Below, in pieces: positions 3-19,863 of a DNA stretch of 20,434 bases. Source of the stretch: a virus. The DNA lies in IMG/VR virus record IMGVR_UViG_3300027771_000135, positions 1-20,434 of that record. One strand, given 5' to 3'. The translations under genes and the position numbers were made by a program. Position 1 is the first letter of the stretch. Each line of letters starts with the position of its first letter. The notes under the pieces are model-generated. The model saw only the letters and a list, made by a program, of their open reading frames with translations. It searched no databases and was not told the DNA's origin.

Positions 3-1334
3 CAGGATCTCATACATCTCACTACAAAGATGTTTGTTGAACCCGCTATAGTATTGGATAGGGAGAGGGTCGCTGTTCACGCTGCCATCTCCGCTGAGCA
101 ACGTACAGCGCTCATCGAACATGGATTGACTTTCATCACTGATCAGTTGGAAACAGTCTATGAAGACCAAAAAATATTCTCCTCGAATAAACAGTTTGCT
201 GAGCTACTTGCACTTCTTAAAGTTAAAGTGCCGAGTAAGATTTCTCCTACTACAGGTAAACCTACGCATGCGCTTGGTAAAACCGATCTCGGCTTTCAAA
301 AACTTCAGCGCGATAACCCTGATTACGAAGCTGTATGGACAGCTCGCAAAGCAGTTAAGTCAACCGGTGAGGTTACTCGGGCCGAAAGGCTTCTGCTTAC
401 TGCTGATCGGTGCCGTGGTCTTATACCTGCTGCCTTAAACTATTATGGTGCACACACAGGCCGCTACAGCGGCGGTGAGAAGCTCAACTTACAGAACCTT
501 AAACGAGGTAGCGAGTTACGTAAGTCACTCTGCTCACCTAAAGGTAGCCTTGTCTATGTCGCAGACAGCTCTAACATTGAAGCACGTATGCTGGCTTGGC
601 TCGCTGACCAGCGATCAATGCTCGATGTGTTTAATGCAAAAGGCGATGTGTACTGCGATTTTGCATCAAAAATATACTTACGTCCTATAACCAAAGGCGT
701 AGACAATGCCGAACGTTTCCTTGGGAAATGTGCAGTGCTCGGTCTTGGCTACGGCATGGGCGCAGACAAGTTCAGGGACACTCTAAAGATGGGTTCTCTT
801 GGTCCACCTGTAAATCTAGAACAACACGAAGTGCAAGACATTGTCGATTTGTATAGATCTGCCAACTCTCGCATCACCGAGTACTGGAAGCGTTGCCAAA
901 ACGCGTGCACCGCAATGCAGAACAAGAGTGCTAACTTTGCATTCGGGCCACTGATCATTAAGTACCAAAAAATTAAACTACCCAATGGCATGTACCTTCG
1001 CTACCCAGACCTACGGACTGAGGGACGCGAGACAGTGTACGGCTCTGGTAGACACAAGACTAAGATCTACGGCGGTAAGCTGTGTGAGAACATCACACAA
1101 GCCCTTGCTCGTATCGTAGTCACAGATCAGATGCTTGCAGCTGACGAGTACCTCAACACTGTTGGTGGTCGTATCGTACTGCAAGTACATGATGAGTTAG
1201 TGGGCATAGCCCCACAAACAGACCCTGAGCAAACGATGAATAAAATGTACGACATTATGCGTACACCGCCTGCTTGGGCACCCACCCTACCCTTAGACGC
1301 CGAAGGCGGCTATGCGGATAACTACAGTAAATAA
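3..1334 (+). CDS. polA: Family A DNA polymerase, polymerase domain (5' truncated by window)
   Basis: This is the replicative DNA polymerase of the phage. The reading frame is open to the left edge, so only the palm/fingers part is seen and the real start lies outside. The first ATG at 30 sits inside a conserved-looking stretch and is unlikely to be the start. Residues below count from that ATG. The TGR box is at 143-145. Motif A (ADSSNIEAR) has its metal-binding Asp at 179. The O-helix is R229-x3-K233-x3-L237-x3-Y241-G242. Motif C is VHDE at 386-389. The residue equivalent to E. coli Pol I Phe762 is Leu237, a variant common in marine phages and linked in the literature to temperate lifestyles. 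The gene is followed 12 nt later by csrA in the same direction. Whether a 3'-5' exonuclease is fused upstream cannot be seen. Confidence 0.95.
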   Translation, partial: QDLIHLTTKMFVEPAIVLDRERVAVHAAISAEQRTALIEHGLTFITDQLETVYEDQKIFSSNKQFAELLALLKVKVPSKISPTTGKPTHALGKTDLGFQKLQRDNPDYEAVWTARKAVKSTGEVTRAERLLLTADRCRGLIPAALNYYGAHTGRYSGGEKLNLQNLKRGSELRKSLCSPKGSLVYVADSSNIEARMLAWLADQRSMLDVFNAKGDVYCDFASKIYLRPITKGVDNAERFLGKCAVLGLGYGMGADKFRDTLKMGSLGPPVNLEQHEVQDIVDLYRSANSRITEYWKRCQNACTAMQNKSANFAFGPLIIKYQKIKLPNGMYLRYPDLRTEGRETVYGSGRHKTKIYGGKLCENITQALARIVVTDQMLAADEYLNTVGGRIVLQVHDELVGIAPQTDPEQTMNKMYDIMRTPPAWAPTLPLDAEGGYADNYSK

Positions 1335-1346
1335 GGAAGTTTTACC

Positions 1347-1535
1347 ATGAACGGCAATTTGGTTTTGACGCGTAATGAAATGCAGCGAGTATTTATCCAA
1401 ACAGACACAGGCTTAGTTAAAGTTACCGTGTTACCAGGACAAAAAAACGGGCAGATACGCCTTAGTTTTGAAGCTCCTCCCGAGATCATCATTGATCGCG
1501 AAGAAGTGTACAAACGTCGCCATAATATTGAATAG
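1347..1535 (+). CDS. csrA: CsrA/RsmA-like post-transcriptional regulator
   Basis: This is a 62-residue homologue of the carbon storage regulator CsrA, a dimeric RNA-binding protein that recognises GGA in mRNA leaders. The N-terminal strand reads LVLTR (residues 5-9, E. coli LILTR). The core GQIRLSFEAP (35-44) matches the GNQVRIGVNAP-type segment, and IIIDREEVYKR (47-57) matches the VHREEIYQR segment. The RNA-contacting residues Leu4, Arg6 and Arg44 of E. coli CsrA correspond to Leu7, Arg9 and Arg51, so RNA binding is likely kept. There is a three-residue N-terminal extension, and the conserved Gly33 position is Ser40. A good ribosome binding site (AAGGAAG) precedes the ATG and itself contains GGA, so autoregulation is possible (inference). 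The gene sits directly after polA and before the primase-helicase. Confidence 0.85.
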   Translation: MNGNLVLTRNEMQRVFIQTDTGLVKVTVLPGQKNGQIRLSFEAPPEIIIDREEVYKRRHNIE

Positions 1536-1576: not shown

Positions 1577-1597
1577 AATATAAGCAATGCTTATATT
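1577..1597. promoter_or_regulatory. Palindromic operator-like site 1, upstream of primase-helicase
   Basis: This is a perfect inverted repeat: the 9-bp arm AATATAAGC (1577-1585), spacer AAT, and the complementary arm GCTTATATT (1589-1597). It lies in the 90-nt AT-rich gap between csrA and the primase gene. A weak promoter-like pair, TTGTGT (1571-1576) and TATTCT (1594-1599) with 17-bp spacing, would place the palindrome between -35 and -10, as expected for an operator. Related palindromes occur in other gaps of the window. An RNA hairpin is the alternative reading. Confidence 0.65.
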
Positions 1598-4171: not shown

Positions 4172-4939
4172 ATGGACTTTTTTGCAAACGACAGACCCGA
4201 CCAAAATAAAATTAACGAAGAAGCTGTGGCACAGGAAGCTGCACTGCAAGTCCTTGGGCCTATCAAAGCGTGGTCATTCTCTACCCTTACTAAATTTGAA
4301 GAGTGTCCATATCGTGTGTACCTCAACAAAGTAAAGAAACTCCCTGAGTCATCTGGCAGTGCTGCAGATCGTGGTACTGCTATACACACGCTTGCAGAAG
4401 ACTACACACAAGGACACATTGGCGAGTTACCCGAAGAGCTATCTAAATACACTGAGAGCTTTAAGCAACTGCGTAGCGATTACGAAGATGGCAAGGTAGA
4501 GATCGAAGGTGACTGGGGTTTCACACAATCCTGGGAACCAACAGGTTGGGCAGTACCCAATACCTGGGCACGCATTAAGTTAGATGCATTTGTTACGGAG
4601 AGCGAGACGTCAGGTCGTGCTATCGACCATAAGACAGGCAAGAAATGGAATAACGAACTAAAGCACGGCGCTCAGCTCATGACGTACGCAATTGCATCGT
4701 TCATGCGCTTCCCCAAAATGGAATACATAGAGACCGAACTTTGGTATTTGGATCAGAATCACGGGCCCACGATCCAAGCATATACCCGTGAACAAGCCAT
4801 GATGTTCTGGCCTAAGCTCAACAAAAGAGCACTCACCATGACGTCATGCACAGACTTTGAACCTAAGCCCTCTCGTCAAAACTGTAGATGGTGTACTTAC
4901 GCCAAAGACAATTCATGCGAATGGGGCGTTATAGATTAG
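4172..4939 (+). CDS. Cas4/RecB-like PD-(D/E)XK nuclease with Fe-S cluster cysteines
   Basis: This is a 255-residue exonuclease-like protein of the PDDEXK_1 group. The N-terminus has the typical S-x-L-x-x-F-x-x-CP motif (35-46, Cys45), then RG-x-x-x-H (R67, H72). The active site follows: Asp138 in RIKLDAF, then the D152-x-K154 core in IDHKTGK, and the Q168-x3-Y172 helix. Three further cysteines near the C-terminus (238, 241, 249) combine with Cys45 in the one-plus-three pattern that binds a 4Fe-4S cluster in Cas4 and AddB. The likely role is 5' or 3' end processing during phage replication or recombination. No CRISPR genes are nearby, so Cas4 function in adaptation is not implied. A GGAG ribosome binding site precedes the start. 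Confidence 0.88.
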   Translation: MDFFANDRPDQNKINEEAVAQEAALQVLGPIKAWSFSTLTKFEECPYRVYLNKVKKLPESSGSAADRGTAIHTLAEDYTQGHIGELPEELSKYTESFKQLRSDYEDGKVEIEGDWGFTQSWEPTGWAVPNTWARIKLDAFVTESETSGRAIDHKTGKKWNNELKHGAQLMTYAIASFMRFPKMEYIETELWYLDQNHGPTIQAYTREQAMMFWPKLNKRALTMTSCTDFEPKPSRQNCRWCTYAKDNSCEWGVID

Positions 4940-5752: not shown

Positions 5753-7123
5753 ATGGAGTTCTTTAAGAACACACCAGACTTGTACAAGCACCAGCGCGTT
5801 ACATCAGACTTTATTGCAGCTAATGACCGTGTGATTGTCACCTCAGATCCTGGCACTGGTAAGACTCGCTCAGTACTGCAGGCTTACACAGAAAACAAAG
5901 ACGGCAAGATGCTCGTCATTGCACCACTGTCCATCCTCCAGCCTAGCTGGGGTGACGACATTGAGCGGTTTAATCCAGAGCTCAAGTACGCTGTAGCGTA
6001 CGCTAAAAACCGAGCCAAGATGTTCTCAGAGAATGTAGACATTACGATTACCAATCACGATGCAGTCAAGTGGCTTGTCAATAACCCAGACGTTCTCGAT
6101 GGTTTCACATGGATTTGTATTGACGAGTTTACTGCGTTCAAAAATTCCACCAGCCAACGCTCCAAAGCAATAGCTAAGTTAGTGCATATGTTCAAACACC
6201 GCATTGTTATGTCAGGCACACCTAATGCCAACACGATCTTAGACATGTGGCATCCAGCCAAGCTTGTTGACGACGGTGAGCGTCTTGGCAAAAGCTACTG
6301 GGGTTATCGCTCTCAAGTATGTTCACCACAACAAGTCGGTCCTGACCCACGCATGGTTCAGTGGAAAGACAAGCCCGGCTCAGAAGATGCAGTTGCAGGC
6401 ATGCTCAAAGACATCTCCATACGTTTTCGTTTCGAGGACTGTATTGATGTCCCAGAAAATACAGAGCACACCATGTACATCGACCTGCCCCCTGCGTTAA
6501 TGAAACAGTATCGCGATTTCTCATGGGACTCCATGATTGACACCAATGACGGCGAGACGATCAATGCGATCCATGCAGGTGCCAAAGTCAAAAAACTATT
6601 GCAGCTATGCACAGGTGCAATCTATAACGAAGATGGCGTTCCTAAAGTATTCCACACACAACGCTATGATCTTGTCATGGAGTTAGTTGCTGCACGCAAG
6701 CACAGTCTTGTTGCTTTCAACTGGCGACATGAGCGCACAGAACTTTGCAAGCTCGCTGACAAGATGGGTATCGAGTATGCATACATCGACGGCACAGTGC
6801 CCGTTGCTCGACGTACTGAGATCGTTCGCGACTACCAAGCTGGTAAGCTCCAGGTTATTTTCTGTCACCCGCAGGCCGCTGGTCACGGACTGACATTGAC
6901 CAAGGGCACTACGACCATCTGGTGTAGCCCATCGTACAATGCCGAGCACTTCCAGCAGATGAACCGTCGTATCTACCGTGCAGGCCAGACACAAAAGACT
7001 GAGACCATCATGATCGCAGCCCGTGACACACACGAAACCAAAGTGTACGAGCGACTTGGCGAGAAGATGACACGCATGAATGACCTGTTGTCGTTGTTCA
7101 ATCAAATTACTAAAGCAGCATAG
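5753..7123 (+). CDS. SNF2-like superfamily 2 helicase/ATPase
   Basis: This is a compact 456-residue SF2 ATPase. Visible motifs are Walker A SDPGTGKT (31-38), motif Ia around VIAPLS (55-60), Walker B with D124-E125 in CIDEF (so DEFT rather than DEAH), motif III SGTP (154-157), motif IV region FNWR (322-325), motif V GHGLTLTKG (377-385) and motif VI QMNRRIYRAGQ (402-412), whose RAGQ ending is typical of SNF2 proteins. Such proteins translocate on double-stranded DNA. Phage versions are usually found in replication modules and may remodel recombination intermediates or protein-DNA complexes. No nuclease or SET-like extra domain is present. The start has AGGAGG at good spacing. Confidence 0.9.
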   Translation: MEFFKNTPDLYKHQRVTSDFIAANDRVIVTSDPGTGKTRSVLQAYTENKDGKMLVIAPLSILQPSWGDDIERFNPELKYAVAYAKNRAKMFSENVDITITNHDAVKWLVNNPDVLDGFTWICIDEFTAFKNSTSQRSKAIAKLVHMFKHRIVMSGTPNANTILDMWHPAKLVDDGERLGKSYWGYRSQVCSPQQVGPDPRMVQWKDKPGSEDAVAGMLKDISIRFRFEDCIDVPENTEHTMYIDLPPALMKQYRDFSWDSMIDTNDGETINAIHAGAKVKKLLQLCTGAIYNEDGVPKVFHTQRYDLVMELVAARKHSLVAFNWRHERTELCKLADKMGIEYAYIDGTVPVARRTEIVRDYQAGKLQVIFCHPQAAGHGLTLTKGTTTIWCSPSYNAEHFQQMNRRIYRAGQTQKTETIMIAARDTHETKVYERLGEKMTRMNDLLSLFNQITKAA

Positions 7124-8049: not shown

Positions 8050-8178
8050 ATGAGTAACGAACAAATTATAAACCTATTCGACAGCAACCCAAACCTACTG
8101 CTATCTGAGCTGGCCATAATTACTGGCAAGTCGGTTAAGCAACTTAAAAAAATATTAATGGAGAATACCAATGACTGA
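8050..8178 (+). CDS. Small helix-turn-helix-like protein (42 aa)
   Basis: This very short gene has a strong AAGGAAG ribosome binding site. The sequence NEQIINLFDSNPNLLLSEL followed by AIITGKSVKQLKKILM has the pattern of a small winged-helix or HTH unit: a first helix IINLF, a second helix LLLSELAIITG and a recognition-like helix SVKQLKKIL. Similar mini-proteins are frequent in marine phage early regions. Its stop overlaps the next gene by 8 nt. DNA binding is inferred from the pattern alone. Confidence 0.65.
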   Translation: MSNEQIINLFDSNPNLLLSELAIITGKSVKQLKKILMENTND

Positions 8179-8545
8179 TTCAAAACTAGGTGACCTGATC
8201 GAACAGGCACATCAACTACGCGAAGTAATCCGTGCTGACGAAAAGAAAGTCAACGCACTCAAGGAAGACTTCAAAAACTTATCCAGCGAGATCATGGTCA
8301 AGATGGACGACCAAGGTGCCAAGCGTATCGGCGGTCTTAGTGCCAACGTATCTATCTCAGAGACTGACGTACCTACTGTCAAAGATTGGGATCTTGTGTA
8401 CGACTACATCAAGACCAACGACTCGTTCTACCTCTTGCAAAAACGCATGAGTGCAGCAGCGTTTCGTGAGCTATTAAACCTTGGACATGAAGTCCCTGGT
8501 GTCGAGATTTTCAAAGACCGTAAGTTAAACCTTCGAGCTTTGTAA
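8171..8545 (+). CDS. Conserved phage early protein with N-terminal coiled coil (124 aa)
   Basis: Residues about 5-48 form a charged heptad-like helix (IEQAHQLREVIRADEKKVNALKE is the start of it). A C-terminal part with DWDLVYDYI and LLQKRMSAAAFRELL follows, then VPGVEIF. I recognise this arrangement as a recurrent phage hypothetical protein but cannot assign a function. It overlaps the mini-HTH gene by 8 nt and is the last gene before the tandem palindromes at 8549-8590, so it probably ends the first early operon. Confidence 0.75.
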   Translation: MTDSKLGDLIEQAHQLREVIRADEKKVNALKEDFKNLSSEIMVKMDDQGAKRIGGLSANVSISETDVPTVKDWDLVYDYIKTNDSFYLLQKRMSAAAFRELLNLGHEVPGVEIFKDRKLNLRAL

Positions 8546-8548
8546 ATA

Positions 8549-8590
8549 AATAAGCCCTACTTATATACATAGTTATAAGCAGGGCTTATA
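8549..8590. promoter_or_regulatory. Tandem palindromic operator-like sites 2a and 2b
   Basis: Two copies of the TATAAGC-N3-GCTTATA palindrome stand side by side, with centres 25 bp apart. Site 2a (8549-8565) reads AATAAGC-CCT-ACTTATA, with 12 of 14 arm bases matching. Site 2b (8574-8590) reads TATAAGC-AGG-GCTTATA and is perfect (8-bp arms from 8573 to 8591). The two are also inverted copies of each other, since AGG in one spacer answers CCT in the other, so the whole segment could fold into one long hairpin with a single mismatch. No T-tract follows, which argues against a terminator. It lies upstream of the putative ssDNA-binding protein gene. Confidence 0.65.
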
Positions 8591-9453: not shown

Positions 9454-9903
9454 TTGAACGAGCATGGATACATTCGTTCCGTCCACCGCCACTTGCCTGC
9501 AGAGATGCACAAGTGGAAAATCCATGATAACTACGCAGGCGGCGTTCCCGACTGCTGGTATGCAGGCCCTCACGGAAATATTTGGGTCGAGTACAAATGG
9601 ATTGCAGCCCTTCCAAAACGCGGCAGCACAGTCATTAAACCCAATCTTTCTGCACAACAATTAGCATGGCTAATAAAAATGTCTGGACAAGACATAAGCT
9701 GTGCTTGTATTATTGGGTCACCAGATGGAGGTATCCTTCTCACAGAGACGGACCACTGGGAACATGGACTTGTAAAATCGGTCTTGAATAAAGCTAATGT
9801 ATTACCAGCAAAGGACATTGCTCGTTGGCTAATTCAACACTGTATGGAGGCGGAATCAGATGACCACATTAAAAACAAAAACGGGCGCACCGCCCTCCAG
9901 TAA
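9454..9903 (+). CDS. VRR-NUC-like PD-(D/E)XK nuclease
   Basis: This is a 149-residue small nuclease. The active-site pattern GGVPD (29-33, P32-D33) followed by VEYK (45-48, E46-x-K48) after a 12-residue turn is the VRR-NUC/Holliday-junction-resolvase type of PD-(D/E)XK core. It probably cleaves branched DNA during replication or packaging. A stop codon lies directly upstream in frame, so translation must begin at TTG 9454 (GAAGAGG about 9 nt upstream) or at an internal Met18. The Met18 start would leave too little before the motif, so TTG is preferred. The C-terminus overlaps the repressor gene by 44 nt. Confidence 0.78.
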   Translation: MNEHGYIRSVHRHLPAEMHKWKIHDNYAGGVPDCWYAGPHGNIWVEYKWIAALPKRGSTVIKPNLSAQQLAWLIKMSGQDISCACIIGSPDGGILLTETDHWEHGLVKSVLNKANVLPAKDIARWLIQHCMEAESDDHIKNKNGRTALQ

Positions 9904-10537
9904 ACGAAGTCTATCCAAGGATTCCCTTGAGATGTCGCGGCGTATTACTAACTCATGGAATGACTATAAGAACAAGAAGTCTGGACAAGACCTTACTCAA
10001 CAAAACGCAGCTAAACAACTTGGCATTACCCAGCCAATGTTTAGTCAGATGTTGCACGGCACAGTTGCAGTTAATCCGATGATGGTGCTTTCTTTAGCAA
10101 GCCTGATTCGATGCGATTTGAGTTTGTTGGTAGCAGGACTTGATGAGTACAAGATCCTACATGCAGTTACGCCGACAAAGAGTATGGAAATTCCAGTGTC
10201 ATTAACATTAACGGGGAGAACCGTTACAGGGAAAACAGTAAATATCATGACGTTAGCAATCTCAGAAGCCTTTGCGGTCGAGATTGATACAGACGAGTAC
10301 TCACCACGCTACAGTGTGGGCGAATACGCCATAATAGAGCCACTAGCAAAGTGGGAAAAAGGTAATCAGGTTCTAGTCCGTTATGGAAAAGACTCCTGCA
10401 TTATTCGTGTCGTTACCAGTATCAATGGAGATGAGGTAGAGACCCATCATCCGACTGTCGTAGGCATAAGTACAACGATTAATTTAGCAGACCCAAAGAT
10501 CACCGTACGCGGTGTCATTCGAGGGGTGCAATTTTAG
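9860..10537 (+). CDS. XRE-family repressor with degenerate S24/LexA-like C-terminal domain
   Basis: This 225-residue protein is the likely lysogeny regulator. An HTH_3 DNA-binding domain spans about 45-85 (LTQQNAAKQLGITQPMFSQ contains the HTH). The C-terminal part (about 130-222) follows the peptidase S24 pattern: AFAVEI, then TDEYSPRY where cleavable repressors have GDSM-x-P, then VLVRYGKDSCIIRVV where they have the catalytic Lys. The Ser position is Glu146 and the Lys position is Ile182 or Ile181, so RecA-stimulated self-cleavage looks impossible. Such repressors usually need an antirepressor for induction. The start at ATG 9860 is supported by GGAGG 9 nt upstream even though it lies inside the nuclease gene. 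No divergent promoter pair is seen. Confidence 0.85.
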   Translation: MTTLKTKTGAPPSSKRSLSKDSLEMSRRITNSWNDYKNKKSGQDLTQQNAAKQLGITQPMFSQMLHGTVAVNPMMVLSLASLIRCDLSLLVAGLDEYKILHAVTPTKSMEIPVSLTLTGRTVTGKTVNIMTLAISEAFAVEIDTDEYSPRYSVGEYAIIEPLAKWEKGNQVLVRYGKDSCIIRVVTSINGDEVETHHPTVVGISTTINLADPKITVRGVIRGVQF

Positions 10538-10757: not shown

Positions 10758-10778
10758 AATATAAGCAGGGCTAATAAC
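10758..10778. promoter_or_regulatory. Palindromic operator-like site 3, upstream of DUF3310 gene
   Basis: The left arm AATATAAGC (10758-10766) is identical to the left arm at 1577-1585. The spacer AGG is the same as in site 2b. The right arm GCTAATAAC matches only 6 of 9. The site abuts the ATG at 10779, so a bound protein, or a hairpin in the message, would interfere with expression of the DUF3310-xis-int group. Confidence 0.5.
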
Positions 10779-13526: not shown

Positions 13527-15581
13527 TTAATGGTTGGTCTCTAAAACAGACACCCTATTTATTAGGGCAACTAAATCGATTTCGACACCACCCGCGTTTG
13601 GATTTGTCATAGCTAGATAACCATTACCCCCGTTTCCCCCTGGAGTTGTAAAAACTGCAGCATGATTAGCAGTCGCTGCTGCTGTGTAAGACCCGCCGAC
13701 TCCACCTGTGCCTATAAAACATTTATAGCTTTGAGCTCGAGCACCGTTAAATGTCGGTACAGCAAGTGACGCATGAGAAACTGTAGCCCCCGCTTGGGCT
13801 TGAACATTAACTGGGCCATAAGGAAAACCGCTGGTATAACCGCCTCCTGGTCCACCGCCACCGCCGCCTTTTGACCCGTTCATGTTTGTATTAAAAGGGG
13901 GTAGTCCGTTGGCAACGCCTGCTGATCCACTTGCGCCACCAGATCCTGCTTGTGAAGATGCTTGCCCCGATTGACCAGGAGCAGGAGAATTGTTTGGTCC
14001 AACAGAATGAGCTGAACCTGTGCCGCCAGTTGCCGTAAAAGACACTATTGCAGTACCTGTTGCATCGGGGCCCGACCAAAACTCAACCCAAGAGTTTTGA
14101 CCATCTTGGCCACTTGCTCTTGTATGGTTTCCAAGAACAGAACCAACAGCGTTGTTACACGCGCCGCCTCCTGCTCCAACTAAAGTTATTGTTATGTTAG
14201 TTTGTAATGCTGAGACGTTAGCAATGTGATAACCACTCGTTATAAACTCTAGCGCTTGACCTGCTTCACCAGCGTACAAATTAACGTTGTTCAACGACAC
14301 GTTGCCCGTTGTATCTGCGTATATTCCTGCACTTGGTGATGAAATGTTAATGCCTGCAAACCCTGCTTGGGCTCCAACACCTCTCCCAAAATAAGCGCCT
14401 GTTGTAGTGCTAGCTAACGCTGTCTTAGTAAAGTGAATTCCTGAACCAGCATTGCTAAAAGCTAAGTTGCCATCAAGCGTAATCTTGTTACTTGTTATAG
14501 CGCCAGCACCGATTTTATCAGCGGTTATTGTTCCCGCGCCTATCTGAGCAGCAGTTAATGTGCCTACAATATTAGCTGTAGTAACAGTCAGGTTGTTAAT
14601 TTTTGCGGTGTCTATGGAGGCATCAGCAATCATTGCTGTGTCCATGTATGTTCCAGCAGCAAACCATTTGCCTGATGGATGGTTTGCTAGTTGATAGCTT
14701 TGAGGAGTATTTGTATATTTTGTGCCGTTTGCAGCAACGGTCATACCCTGACCTGAAACAATAAAAAACGGTATAGTGCTGCCGCCAAGTCCATTACCGA
14801 CTTTAAATAAGCCTGCGTTAACTGTGAACTCGCTAGAGGTAGCACCAGCAGCAATGCCATATCCTGCAACTTCGTTTGCGCCATTAATTCTAATGTACTG
14901 TTCCCCTTCAAGAGCGCCTAGAGCTGATGTGTGTGAGGTAACTGATGTACCAATAGTTCCAATGGTAGCAATGTTTTCTGACAAAGCAGTATCTAAGGAA
15001 CTTATACCAATGGATTCATTTAGGTCAGTTAGAATAGATGCGACTGTTTTGTTAGTGGTTGCAACTGTGCCATCAGTGGCGTTGAATGGACCAATCACAC
15101 CTGAGTTTGACACAAAACGCACCCAATAATAAAAAGTACTGCCGGGGTCAACAGTGTCTACATAAATGCTGCCAGGAGTGCTACCAATGTGTGTTGCCGC
15201 AGTTAAAACGTCAGTGGAACTGCGAAATATTTCTACGGATGCAACAGCTCTATTTGCAAAGCTTCCGTTCCAAGACAATAGAACGTTAGTAAAAGCACCA
15301 GCTGCAGATAAGTTAGAAGGACTTTGCGGCACTGCCGAGTCGCTAATCGTTGCATCTGCTGGTAAAAGAGTTCCACCGCCATTTGCGATGGCGTTTGCTC
15401 TAAACGTAGCTATGCCAGCCTCGGTCAGGTCTCGAAAGGTAACAGCTTTGTCCAGCGCTTCGCCGCGCTGCCCTACTTGGATTTCTAAGGCTTCCTTTAC
15501 GGCAGTCAATATAGGTTTAAGGTTAGGGTCTACCTGAGATGGTACGGCTGGTATAGCTGTTACTTTTGTAGGTCTGCTCAT
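13527..15581 (-). CDS. Tail tip/fibre protein with FnIII-like domain and glycine-rich adhesin end
   Basis: This 684-residue structural protein probably forms the tail tip or fibre. About residues 85-175 look like a fibronectin type III domain (NVLLSWNGS; FYYWVRFVS). About 180-300 resemble the central part of phage lambda J-like proteins (DUF1983: NEVAGYGIAAGATSSEFTV, FKVGNG). About 330-375 show the AQIGAGTITADKIGAGAI repeat style common in tail fibres. The last 200 residues are glycine-rich (KGGGGGGPGGGYTSG; GGNGGNGYLAM) and probably form the receptor-binding tip. Its start overlaps the stop of the upstream gene by 4 nt (ATGA). Confidence 0.82.
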   Translation of the reverse strand: MSRPTKVTAIPAVPSQVDPNLKPILTAVKEALEIQVGQRGEALDKAVTFRDLTEAGIATFRANAIANGGGTLLPADATISDSAVPQSPSNLSAAGAFTNVLLSWNGSFANRAVASVEIFRSSTDVLTAATHIGSTPGSIYVDTVDPGSTFYYWVRFVSNSGVIGPFNATDGTVATTNKTVASILTDLNESIGISSLDTALSENIATIGTIGTSVTSHTSALGALEGEQYIRINGANEVAGYGIAAGATSSEFTVNAGLFKVGNGLGGSTIPFFIVSGQGMTVAANGTKYTNTPQSYQLANHPSGKWFAAGTYMDTAMIADASIDTAKINNLTVTTANIVGTLTAAQIGAGTITADKIGAGAITSNKITLDGNLAFSNAGSGIHFTKTALASTTTGAYFGRGVGAQAGFAGINISSPSAGIYADTTGNVSLNNVNLYAGEAGQALEFITSGYHIANVSALQTNITITLVGAGGGACNNAVGSVLGNHTRASGQDGQNSWVEFWSGPDATGTAIVSFTATGGTGSAHSVGPNNSPAPGQSGQASSQAGSGGASGSAGVANGLPPFNTNMNGSKGGGGGGPGGGYTSGFPYGPVNVQAQAGATVSHASLAVPTFNGARAQSYKCFIGTGGVGGSYTAAATANHAAVFTTPGGNGGNGYLAMTNPNAGGVEIDLVALINRVSVLETNH

Positions 15582-17596
15582 AATAGTTCGTTCACGTTGT
15601 CTGCAATGCTTATACTGTTTACAGGCGCTGTTCCTGCCACTTCAAATTCCCATTGCTTTACGCGACTGCCCGAGGGCAAATGAAAAGGATCATTGCTAGT
15701 TACGCTATAAGTATATGCAAGATTTGCATTCGCTGGCGTCGTTGCCGTCCCACCCATACCACTGTGATTAGTACAGTAGTAGTACAATGTTGCGGCACTT
15801 GCAGCAACAACAATCTGCGTGTAAGCCCCAGCACTACCAGCAGTTCCTACTGTTGTGACGCCAGTGGTATAAGCAGAACCGCTGTTATGTGTGCCATTAG
15901 ACGTTGCTGAAAATCTTAAAGGATGGCCACTGTTGCTTGATGCTGACTGATCAAATTTATAAGTGTAGCCTTCTTTTAAACTAACTGTAGCTTGCATCAC
16001 TCCGTCGATGTAGTACTTATTTCCTGAACCTGGATTAGAAACTGTAACTGCAAATGTAGTTAGAGCTGGCGGTGTGACGTCTGTAAACAACTTAAACGTA
16101 ATAGGATAAGAGTCAGCGTCAACGCGCGCCCAACCTAAATTGCGTGGCTTGGTGCTAACGTAAGATTTAGATTTCCAAACGTAGTTAGCAAAACCACTGC
16201 CCTGCCCAAATTTCTTGACCGCTGTGCCGTCGACAAAATACAAACAGTCGCTTTCCAAATGATTGTAAGCACCGTCATAGGTTTCACTACTTGTAGACAA
16301 AGCGTTCTTGCCCCCACGGGGGTCAAACAAAATACTCTCTGTAGCATTAGAGGCGATGTACGTGCCTTCATAATTCATGGCTTTTAGAGTAGTTGGGTTG
16401 TAAGCCTGCCACTGTGAGCGGCGAAGCAATGCTTCGGTCACTAACTGTATCTGTTGACCTTGCACTGTGACTAACCCATCAGGAGAGGCGTAAATTACAT
16501 ACCCGCCCATATCTACCATGGACATTTTACTGACGCAGGCTTGGTCACTCTCCAATTGGATGAGGCTAATAGACGCTGGATCTGAACCTTGGGCGATGTA
16601 CGGTTTGCCCTTAGTACCAACTACTAGTCCACCGGGCGTTGGCTTGATCGCAACAATATCTGATTCTGTTGCTAGCTGATAGCTAGTAGGCCAAGCGTGT
16701 GGTAAATAAGGCACACTGAAACAAAGTGTCTTGCCAGTAAACCCGGCCATGATGCCGTTGCCTATAGAGCATATCCCTTGCATTGGACCTGTTGGAAACA
16801 ATGTTGCATTGTCATCAGGTGGACGCATCCAAGTTACTGAAGGGATTAATTCCCCTAGTGCAGTGCTAGTTGTCGCCTGAGCGGAAACAACACCACCGAC
16901 CATTGTGGGTGTTGTTGTGGATGCATAGCTTGAATTGGCTGTGCCTAACTCCACATACGATGTGGCAGTGTAAGCCACTTCAGCAACAAACTGAAAACCT
17001 GTAGAAGAGCTGCCTGTGTTAGTTCTATAAATACGTTTTAGAGAACCTGTAGTAAAATTAAGGCCAGAAGTAGAAGGCATAGCTGGTAAGCTGAGCGTTG
17101 TAGTCTGTCCGTTTCTAAACGCAACTGCTGTGCTTGCAAATGATGGAGGGCCCTCTTCTCCCCAACTAGTGACAAATGTAACGACATAGCTTCTACTCTC
17201 TTCTAGTTCATCTGGCGATACGGCGCCTGTTACTGAAACAGTTGGCGCAGCTGTAGGAGCTGGCACACCGAGTCGGTATGGACCTCCGTCATTTCGATAT
17301 ACTTTTGGGTACGTTTCACCTGTGTAGTACACCCGTTCAGTTACGTCATTCACAATCGGACCTTCAACAATGTCGACTTGTGAAGCGTAGCTTTTCCAGA
17401 TGGAGCCAGAGTAGAGATAAACTGTGTTGGTTCCACTTGGTACTGTAGTCACTGACGCAGAGTGGTCAGGTAACGCCTCTAAACGACCTGAATCTAAACG
17501 CACGTTAAGTGCTGACTGCGCTATTGATTCGGCAAGTAACCGAGGAGCAATCTTAGGGGCAATGCCGTTGAACTGTGAGACGCTAAAATTAGCCAT
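15578..17596 (-). CDS. Structural (tail/stem) protein with inserted cupredoxin-like domain
   Basis: This protein of about 672 residues begins MANFSVSQFNGIAPKIAP. ATG 17596 is chosen over TTG 17608 because GGAG lies 6 nt upstream. The N-terminal and middle parts resemble virion stem or stabilisation proteins of marine phages (beta-rich, with a FnIII-like part around 115-235 and repeats of the VDMGGYVIYASPDGLV type). Near the C-terminus, 15734-16063 encodes a cupredoxin-like domain. It has His in GHPLRF, then YYYCTNHSGMGG, giving His-Cys-His-Met ligands spaced as in amicyanin (C-x2-H-x2-M). The sequence resumes with SNDPFHLPSG and WEFEVAGT, so the domain looks inserted into an older fold. It is coupled by ATGA and TAATG overlaps to both neighbours. 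Confidence 0.8.
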   Translation of the reverse strand: MANFSVSQFNGIAPKIAPRLLAESIAQSALNVRLDSGRLEALPDHSASVTTVPSGTNTVYLYSGSIWKSYASQVDIVEGPIVNDVTERVYYTGETYPKVYRNDGGPYRLGVPAPTAAPTVSVTGAVSPDELEESRSYVVTFVTSWGEEGPPSFASTAVAFRNGQTTTLSLPAMPSTSGLNFTTGSLKRIYRTNTGSSSTGFQFVAEVAYTATSYVELGTANSSYASTTTPTMVGGVVSAQATTSTALGELIPSVTWMRPPDDNATLFPTGPMQGICSIGNGIMAGFTGKTLCFSVPYLPHAWPTSYQLATESDIVAIKPTPGGLVVGTKGKPYIAQGSDPASISLIQLESDQACVSKMSMVDMGGYVIYASPDGLVTVQGQQIQLVTEALLRRSQWQAYNPTTLKAMNYEGTYIASNATESILFDPRGGKNALSTSSETYDGAYNHLESDCLYFVDGTAVKKFGQGSGFANYVWKSKSYVSTKPRNLGWARVDADSYPITFKLFTDVTPPALTTFAVTVSNPGSGNKYYIDGVMQATVSLKEGYTYKFDQSASSNSGHPLRFSATSNGTHNSGSAYTTGVTTVGTAGSAGAYTQIVVAASAATLYYYCTNHSGMGGTATTPANANLAYTYSVTSNDPFHLPSGSRVKQWEFEVAGTAPVNSISIADNVNELL

Positions 17597-17970
17597 TAGT
17601 AACTCCAAATATTTGGTCGTGCAAACCCATCATCAATTGTTAGGTCGTCAAGATGTATAAATCGACCGCCACCTTTTTGCTGAACACCGAGCCCTGTAAT
17701 GCCGAACTCAAAAGCTACCTTTATTAATTTAATAGCTTTGTCACCGCGCACAGCTATATCAACAGCACGACCACTGGCATGTGTTCCAGGCTTTGCTTTC
17801 TTAGCTTCTATAGGGTGGGTAGGGTCACGGTATGCAGAGGTTATTGTGAAAGGGAAATCACATTTAATACGGATGGCTTCAAGCGTAATCATAAAGCCAG
17901 GGTCCATCAGACACTTTCCAGAATGGCTGCATTTTAACTCGTCTTCGGTAAAATATTTCCAATCGCTCAT
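17596..17970 (-). CDS. Endolysin, peptidase M15 (D-Ala-D-Ala carboxypeptidase-like)
   Basis: This 124-residue peptidoglycan peptidase is probably the phage lysin. The signature ITSAYRDPTHP (43-53) is followed by GTHASGRAVDI, with zinc ligands His64 and Asp71, and by FIHLD with the third ligand His106. The length is typical of the minimal M15A catalytic domain without a wall-binding part. There is no signal peptide, so export needs a holin. Its stop overlaps the start of the downstream structural gene (TAATG), and its start overlaps the stop of the coiled-coil/TM gene by 4 nt. Confidence 0.88.
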   Translation of the reverse strand: MSDWKYFTEDELKCSHSGKCLMDPGFMITLEAIRIKCDFPFTITSAYRDPTHPIEAKKAKPGTHASGRAVDIAVRGDKAIKLIKVAFEFGITGLGVQQKGGGRFIHLDDLTIDDGFARPNIWSY

Positions 17971-18199: not shown

Positions 18200-18220
18200 T
18201 ATATTAGCACAGCTTATATT
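18200..18220. promoter_or_regulatory. Palindromic operator-like site 4, upstream of lysis cassette
   Basis: The arms are TATATTAGC (18200-18208) and GCTTATATT (18212-18220), with spacer ACA. The right arm is identical to that of site 1, and the left arm has 2 mismatches of 9. On the - strand a TATAAT hexamer (18223-18218) overlaps its edge, although no good -35 is seen. It is the only gap of more than 40 nt inside the lysis region, so it may be the control point of the coiled-coil/TM and endolysin genes. Confidence 0.55.
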
Positions 18221-19846: not shown

Positions 19847-19863
19847 TATAAGCTAGGCTTATA
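19847..19863. promoter_or_regulatory. Palindromic operator-like site 5, upstream of small basic genes
   Basis: This is a perfect inverted repeat, TATAAGC-TAG-GCTTATA (7-bp arms, 3-nt spacer). It overlaps the stop codon of the upstream - strand gene and precedes the ribosome binding site of the 19555-19833 gene. The arms are identical to the inner 7 bp of sites 1 and 2b, while the spacer differs. Confidence 0.6.

Follow-up and report, generated by a model that had tools for sequence, protein, structure and literature searches.

The window, a virus record of 20,434 bases, carries a csrA-family gene between a DNA polymerase gene (polA) and a primase-helicase-like gene. Since csrA sits between polymerase and primase in about 200 related uncultured viruses, it is suggested that this gene serves the virus's own DNA replication and is not an occasional host-metabolism gene. 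On balance we favor, as a somewhat probable explanation, that csrA is a core gene of a polA-csrA-primase replication operon and acts in translational control of phage mRNAs in a large and mostly uncultured phage lineage. The features of the window are collected in Table 1.

Table 1. Genes and sequence elements in and around the polA-csrA-primase segment of the window
Feature	Coordinates	Strand	Evidence
Family-A DNA polymerase gene polA, 5' end lost at window edge	3..1334	+	Pfam PF00476, 102 bits; PHROG 17 DNA polymerase, E 1e-61
Shine-Dalgarno-like GGAAG of csrA	1334..1338	+	Read from sequence; 8 nt 5' of ATG
csrA-family gene	1347..1535	+	Pfam, PHROG 9500, PDB sequence match, AlphaFold, Foldseek, dN/dS
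Perfect palindrome with 10-bp arms, AATATAAGCA-A-TGCTTATATT	1577..1597		Inverted repeat between csrA and primase gene
DUF5906/primase-helicase-like gene, 843 aa	1626..4157	+	Pfam PF19263, 59.6 bits; PHROG 24712, E 1e-156
RecB-like PD-(D/E)XK exonuclease gene, next in replication module	4172..4939	+	Pfam PF12705, 71.6 bits; PHROG 69 exonuclease
SNF2-type DNA helicase gene, replication module	5753..7123	+	Pfam PF00176; PHROG 62 DNA helicase, E 2e-105

The csrA ORF comprises 62 codons and a stop codon. Its 62-amino-acid product (MNGNLVLTRNEMQRVFIQTDTGLVKVTVLPGQKNGQIRLSFEAPPEIIIDREEVYKRRHNIE) was matched by Pfam PF02599 (CsrA) with 41 bits (E 1.9e-10; gathering cut-off, 27) and by PHROG 9500, "CsrA-like regulator" (E 5e-13), and also matched CsrA/RsmA chains in the PDB at the sequence level. 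As the scores were well under the NCBIfam csrA equivalog cut-offs (30.7 versus 70.1 bits for TIGR00202 and 35.1 versus 73 bits for NF002469), the protein is classed by sequence as a member of the CsrA family, without being designated functionally equivalent to cellular CsrA. An AlphaFold monomer model, built with 54 related sequences, had a pLDDT of 92.3 and contained strands at residues 14-18, 23-33 and 36-42 and a helix at 52-59; the antiparallel strands, of which the terminal ones are left free for domain swapping, and the C-terminal helix are those of the CsrA fold. Comparison of this model to the PDB with Foldseek returned the RsmE-RsmZ complex 2mfc as the top match (probability 1.00, TM 0.75/0.78, E 3.5e-3) and no convincing match besides RsmE. 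The identification of a phage-encoded CsrA homologue in the preliminary description was hence confirmed by Pfam, PHROG 9500, the AlphaFold model and Foldseek. The ORF, its start and its neighbors were kept in three IMG/VR contigs with 79 to 94% protein identity. Values of dN/dS were 0.04 to 0.07 when the window was compared to its two closer relatives and when these were compared to each other, the third relative being left out due to saturation of synonymous sites. The csrA gene is under purifying selection.

Alignment with E. coli CsrA placed Leu7, Arg9 and Arg51 of the window protein at L4, R6 and R44, in agreement with the earlier statement that the RNA-contacting residues are kept. Among 157 distinct CsrA sequences of the lineage, L2, R6 and R44 were present in 100% and L4 and A36 in 97%. 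The His43 of the VHRE/D motif was absent from the window protein; this position, adjoining the essential Arg44, is occupied by Asp50, and Asp was found there in 94% of the lineage sequences. Replacement of His43 by Asp counts against the best explanation but is a divergence within the CsrA family and provides no ground for exclusion. Furthermore, Val34 was replaced by Phe in 98% of these sequences. The preliminary description had singled out an N-terminal extension, which amounts to three residues, and a Ser in place of Gly33 (Ser40 of the window protein). Both were present but neither is odd within the lineage, where extensions are the rule and the Gly33 position is mostly Ala, Gly or Thr. 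The window protein also has four extra residues between strands in comparison to E. coli CsrA. Overall, it resembles cellular CsrA, RsmA and RsmE (PF02599; RsmE 2MFC) in family score, predicted strand order, size and the residues L4, R6, A36 and R44, and differs from them in its extension, in the changes at H43 and G33, in the Asp often found at P37 in the lineage and in the linkage of its gene to polA and primase.

Within the window, csrA is located 12 nt downstream of polA, whose product carries a C-terminal VHDE motif, and 90 nt upstream of the DUF5906 gene, whose product was additionally matched by PHROG 1156 DNA primase (E 4e-19). Assignment of csrA to a replication operon was borne out, with polA directly upstream and the primase/helicase gene directly downstream. 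The window phage is probably temperate, as genes for an integrase, PhoH, an internal virion protein and tail proteins are also present; no tRNA was detected in the window. The product of a gene at 8171-8545 (+), by the replication module, was weakly matched by Mu Gam-like end-protection proteins. In the internal-virion-like protein encoded at 15578-17608 (-), a C-terminal stretch matched tail-fibre families and contained a repeated-looking motif, HSGHPLRF...YYYCTNHSGMGG.

In order to establish how regularly this gene order occurs, two types of census were performed. For the first, viral contigs were searched with a four-sequence csrA alignment and the best 80 loci were retained; in this set, which is biased towards csrA, the gene immediately followed a polymerase gene encoding a C-terminal VHDE motif in 69 of 81 loci (the window included), and primase was usually next. 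Due to this bias, IMG/VR was then searched with the neighboring primase instead of csrA. An initial primase search detected csrA between polA and primase in each of the 78 viral loci whose upstream sequence was long enough. Two further primase alignments found csrA in the same slot in 150/150 loci, and two more, led by the primases of the window and phiA008, in 155/155. Each scan covered its best 80 loci, below which several hundred weaker primase relatives rank, and the few loci of incomplete upstream sequence were set aside. The sets overlap and together contain about 203 different primase sequences and 191 different csrA tails. A polA gene was confirmed to adjoin csrA in nearly all loci (149/150 and 152/155 in the later sets). 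The position of csrA is fixed in this lineage and its retention is near universal. Among 106 listed spacings, 92 placed the csrA start between -11 and +3 nt relative to the polA stop codon, which was often overlapped, and translation of csrA is therefore probably coupled to that of polA, judging from these gene boundaries.

Four genome records were also matched by the primase, three of which were metagenome bins. The contigs from bins named Neomarinimicrobiota, Planctomycetaceae and Rhodospirillaceae (L173, L174 and L175) carried the polA-csrA-primase module; these may be stray phage contigs, as two of them are 55 to 61 kb, a length similar to that of these phages. A record labelled as an Acinetobacter phage (L008; CAKLQH020000034.1) had alaS, thrA and csrA arranged as on a chromosome. 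The csrA of this record probably belongs to the host, and entries of this kind swell the tally of phage csrA genes; chromosome-like records in the phage collection, this one among them, were left out of the phage csrA count.

A quick tree was constructed from 62 alignment columns, with most forks unresolved. The 51 polA-linked CsrAs were on the opposite side of a branch from 13 cellular and other phage CsrAs, with an indecisive SH-aLRT value of 90, and the window's group of four formed a long branch inside the polA-linked side. Distance matrices for csrA were correlated with those for polA (r = 0.75) and primase (r = 0.78), and none of 2,000 permutations reached values as high. The linked CsrAs share a common origin and have co-diverged with polA and primase.

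No DNA similarity of the window to cultured phages was found. The nearest cultured relatives were KPP25/phiR18 and phiA008, with 31 to 34% identity for the polymerase, about 29 to 32% for the primase and 36 to 40% for the helicase. The csrA gene was absent from 14-kb stretches around the distant primase relatives in KPP25 and phiA008 and from a distantly related Aggregatibacter prophage (L176), and KPP25, unlike the polA-csrA-primase lineage, has its polA gene located elsewhere. By eye, the csrA slot was seen to hold a small Cys-rich, zinc-finger-like ORF with paired cysteines instead in phiA008 (L011, 5786-5974) and in the Aggregatibacter prophage (9820-10013). The polA-csrA-primase order was not found in any annotated phage of the INPHARED collection, and the open-access literature yielded no description of a csrA gene with a fixed place between the polymerase and primase genes of phages. 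Phage-borne csrA is itself already known; what appears to be new is a distinct CsrA clade with a set position in the replication operon of a phage lineage.

On the basis of gene context and the known action of CsrA proteins, we infer a mechanism in which a dimer of the phage CsrA would bind GGA-containing sites close to the translation starts of phage mRNAs. The most plausible target would be the polA-csrA-primase message itself. Autogenous or operon-level translational control would then determine how much of the replication proteins is made, or when, and an additional action on host mRNAs would be possible. The GGA core inside the Shine-Dalgarno-like sequence of csrA is a possible candidate site.

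A search for RNA targets was performed on the starts of the replication genes. In a discovery set, GGA was present in the loop of a short-stem hairpin at 23 of 48 non-redundant primase starts, as compared to 19% for other genes of the same contigs and 16% for shuffled sequences. This criterion was fixed in writing before held-out loci were scanned, and the held-out primase starts were positive in 2 of 13 cases, or 4 of 24 in an enlarged set, both being background levels. We discarded the idea of a GGA-hairpin operator that marks primase starts across the lineage, and the disappearance of this signal in held-out loci counts against the best explanation. The same test of polA starts detected no excess over background (11/53). 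In one clade, with the loop TGTAGGAG, a 4-bp stem was kept with a few compensatory pairs, which is suggestive only, and in the window itself the leaders of csrA and primase form only weak hairpins. An Rfam search of the window detected no CsrB/RsmY-type sponge RNA, a search that a new sponge family would escape.

A different element was observed in the csrA-primase interval. The core of the palindrome listed in Table 1 was conserved in three other loci (L002, L003 and L004). Searching for TATAAGC-N3-GCTTATA with up to three mismatches yielded six matches in the window against 0.15 expected (1579-1595, 8574-8590, 10760-10776, 15598-15614, 18202-18218 and 19847-19863). Five of these are intergenic and just 5' of start codons while that at 15598 is within a gene, and relatives of the window hold additional copies. 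The copy between csrA and primase probably acts as an operator or promoter for the primase gene. Taken together, the copies resemble an operator or promoter in use across the phage genome, perhaps one served by a repressor-like gene at 9860-10537.

The alternative with the most in its favor is that the phage CsrA becomes part of the Csr/Rsm regulon of the host, with effects on carbon flux, motility or biofilm formation. The RNA-contact residues are conserved, and there is a precedent in RsmQ, a CsrA homologue of plasmid pQBR103 that binds GGA sites, takes global translational control of Pseudomonas fluorescens and reshapes host behavior (PMC9928087). RsmQ can be likened to the window CsrA by description, not by sequence alignment; it is plasmid-borne and host-acting and retains the His43-Arg44 motif, and an alanine mutant at His43 had weaker binding (PMC9928087). 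Unrelated Vibrio and Pseudomonas phages also carry csrA in other gene contexts. A 2020 survey detected csrA in 30 phages among 2,517 genomes, several of which were metagenomic marine viruses (PMC7366521). The copies in Vibrio phages 1.232.O and 219E41, in Pseudomonas phages of the H66/F116 type (RsmM) and in Providencia phage PSTCR8lys belong to the same family, with about 40 to 49% identity to the window protein, but adjoin accessory or repressor-region genes and group with cellular CsrA in the tree. A host-aimed auxiliary gene is expected to come and go among related phages and to shift its genome position. Such sporadic presence and variable position were not observed in the primase-selected loci, and the constant position of csrA and its retention throughout the lineage resemble those of a core phage function. 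The preliminary description had left the choice between timing phage translation and reprogramming the host; gene context favors the former, and the emphasis on host metabolism was weakened because csrA occurred in the same slot of every primase-selected locus with intact upstream sequence. Host reprogramming is therefore considered unlikely.

Two further alternatives were given lower weight. The phage CsrA could hold host defence genes under Gac/Rsm control translationally silent during infection. Both CRISPR-Cas in Serratia (PMC8450108) and anti-phage defences of pseudomonads (PMC11888443) are under such control, by Rsm/Csr and Gac/Rsm, respectively, and timing alongside replication genes would fit. 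However, a gene with this role would be expected to be patchy and untied to polA, making such a function distinctly doubtful. A direct replisome role, in which the CsrA fold acts on GGA-bearing single-stranded DNA or RNA primers and aids the polymerase or primase, would be in keeping with the exclusive linkage of csrA to polA and primase in primase-selected loci and with the start-stop overlap with polA, which would favor matched expression. We know of no CsrA protein that acts as a replication factor, and as the invariant residues are those for RNA binding, no change of function is needed; this role is thus highly improbable even though in vitro binding of RsmQ to GGA sites of single-stranded DNA has been shown (PMC9928087). 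Finally, a chance or decayed small ORF, which might be suspected from the 62-codon length and sub-cut-off equivalog scores, was ruled out by the family matches, conservation, dN/dS and model pLDDT and retains practically no probability.

Translational control of phage mRNAs by a core operon gene remains the explanation that we prefer. A bolder and tentative proposal is that this dedicated CsrA clade is an obligatory part of the replication machinery throughout this phage lineage, either as a translational governor of the operon that works without any host Csr system or as a GGA-reading accessory for primers or single-stranded DNA.

CsrA is known as a global regulator of bacteria, and phage copies of csrA have previously been listed without explanation. 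A phage-centred role is implied by a CsrA clade that stays in one slot, between polymerase and primase, across some two hundred distinct viral sequences. In phage T4, RegA and gp43 are known to control the translation of replication genes; the present findings would extend such control to a CsrA-type protein and would also advise caution against tagging every phage csrA as a host-metabolism gene.
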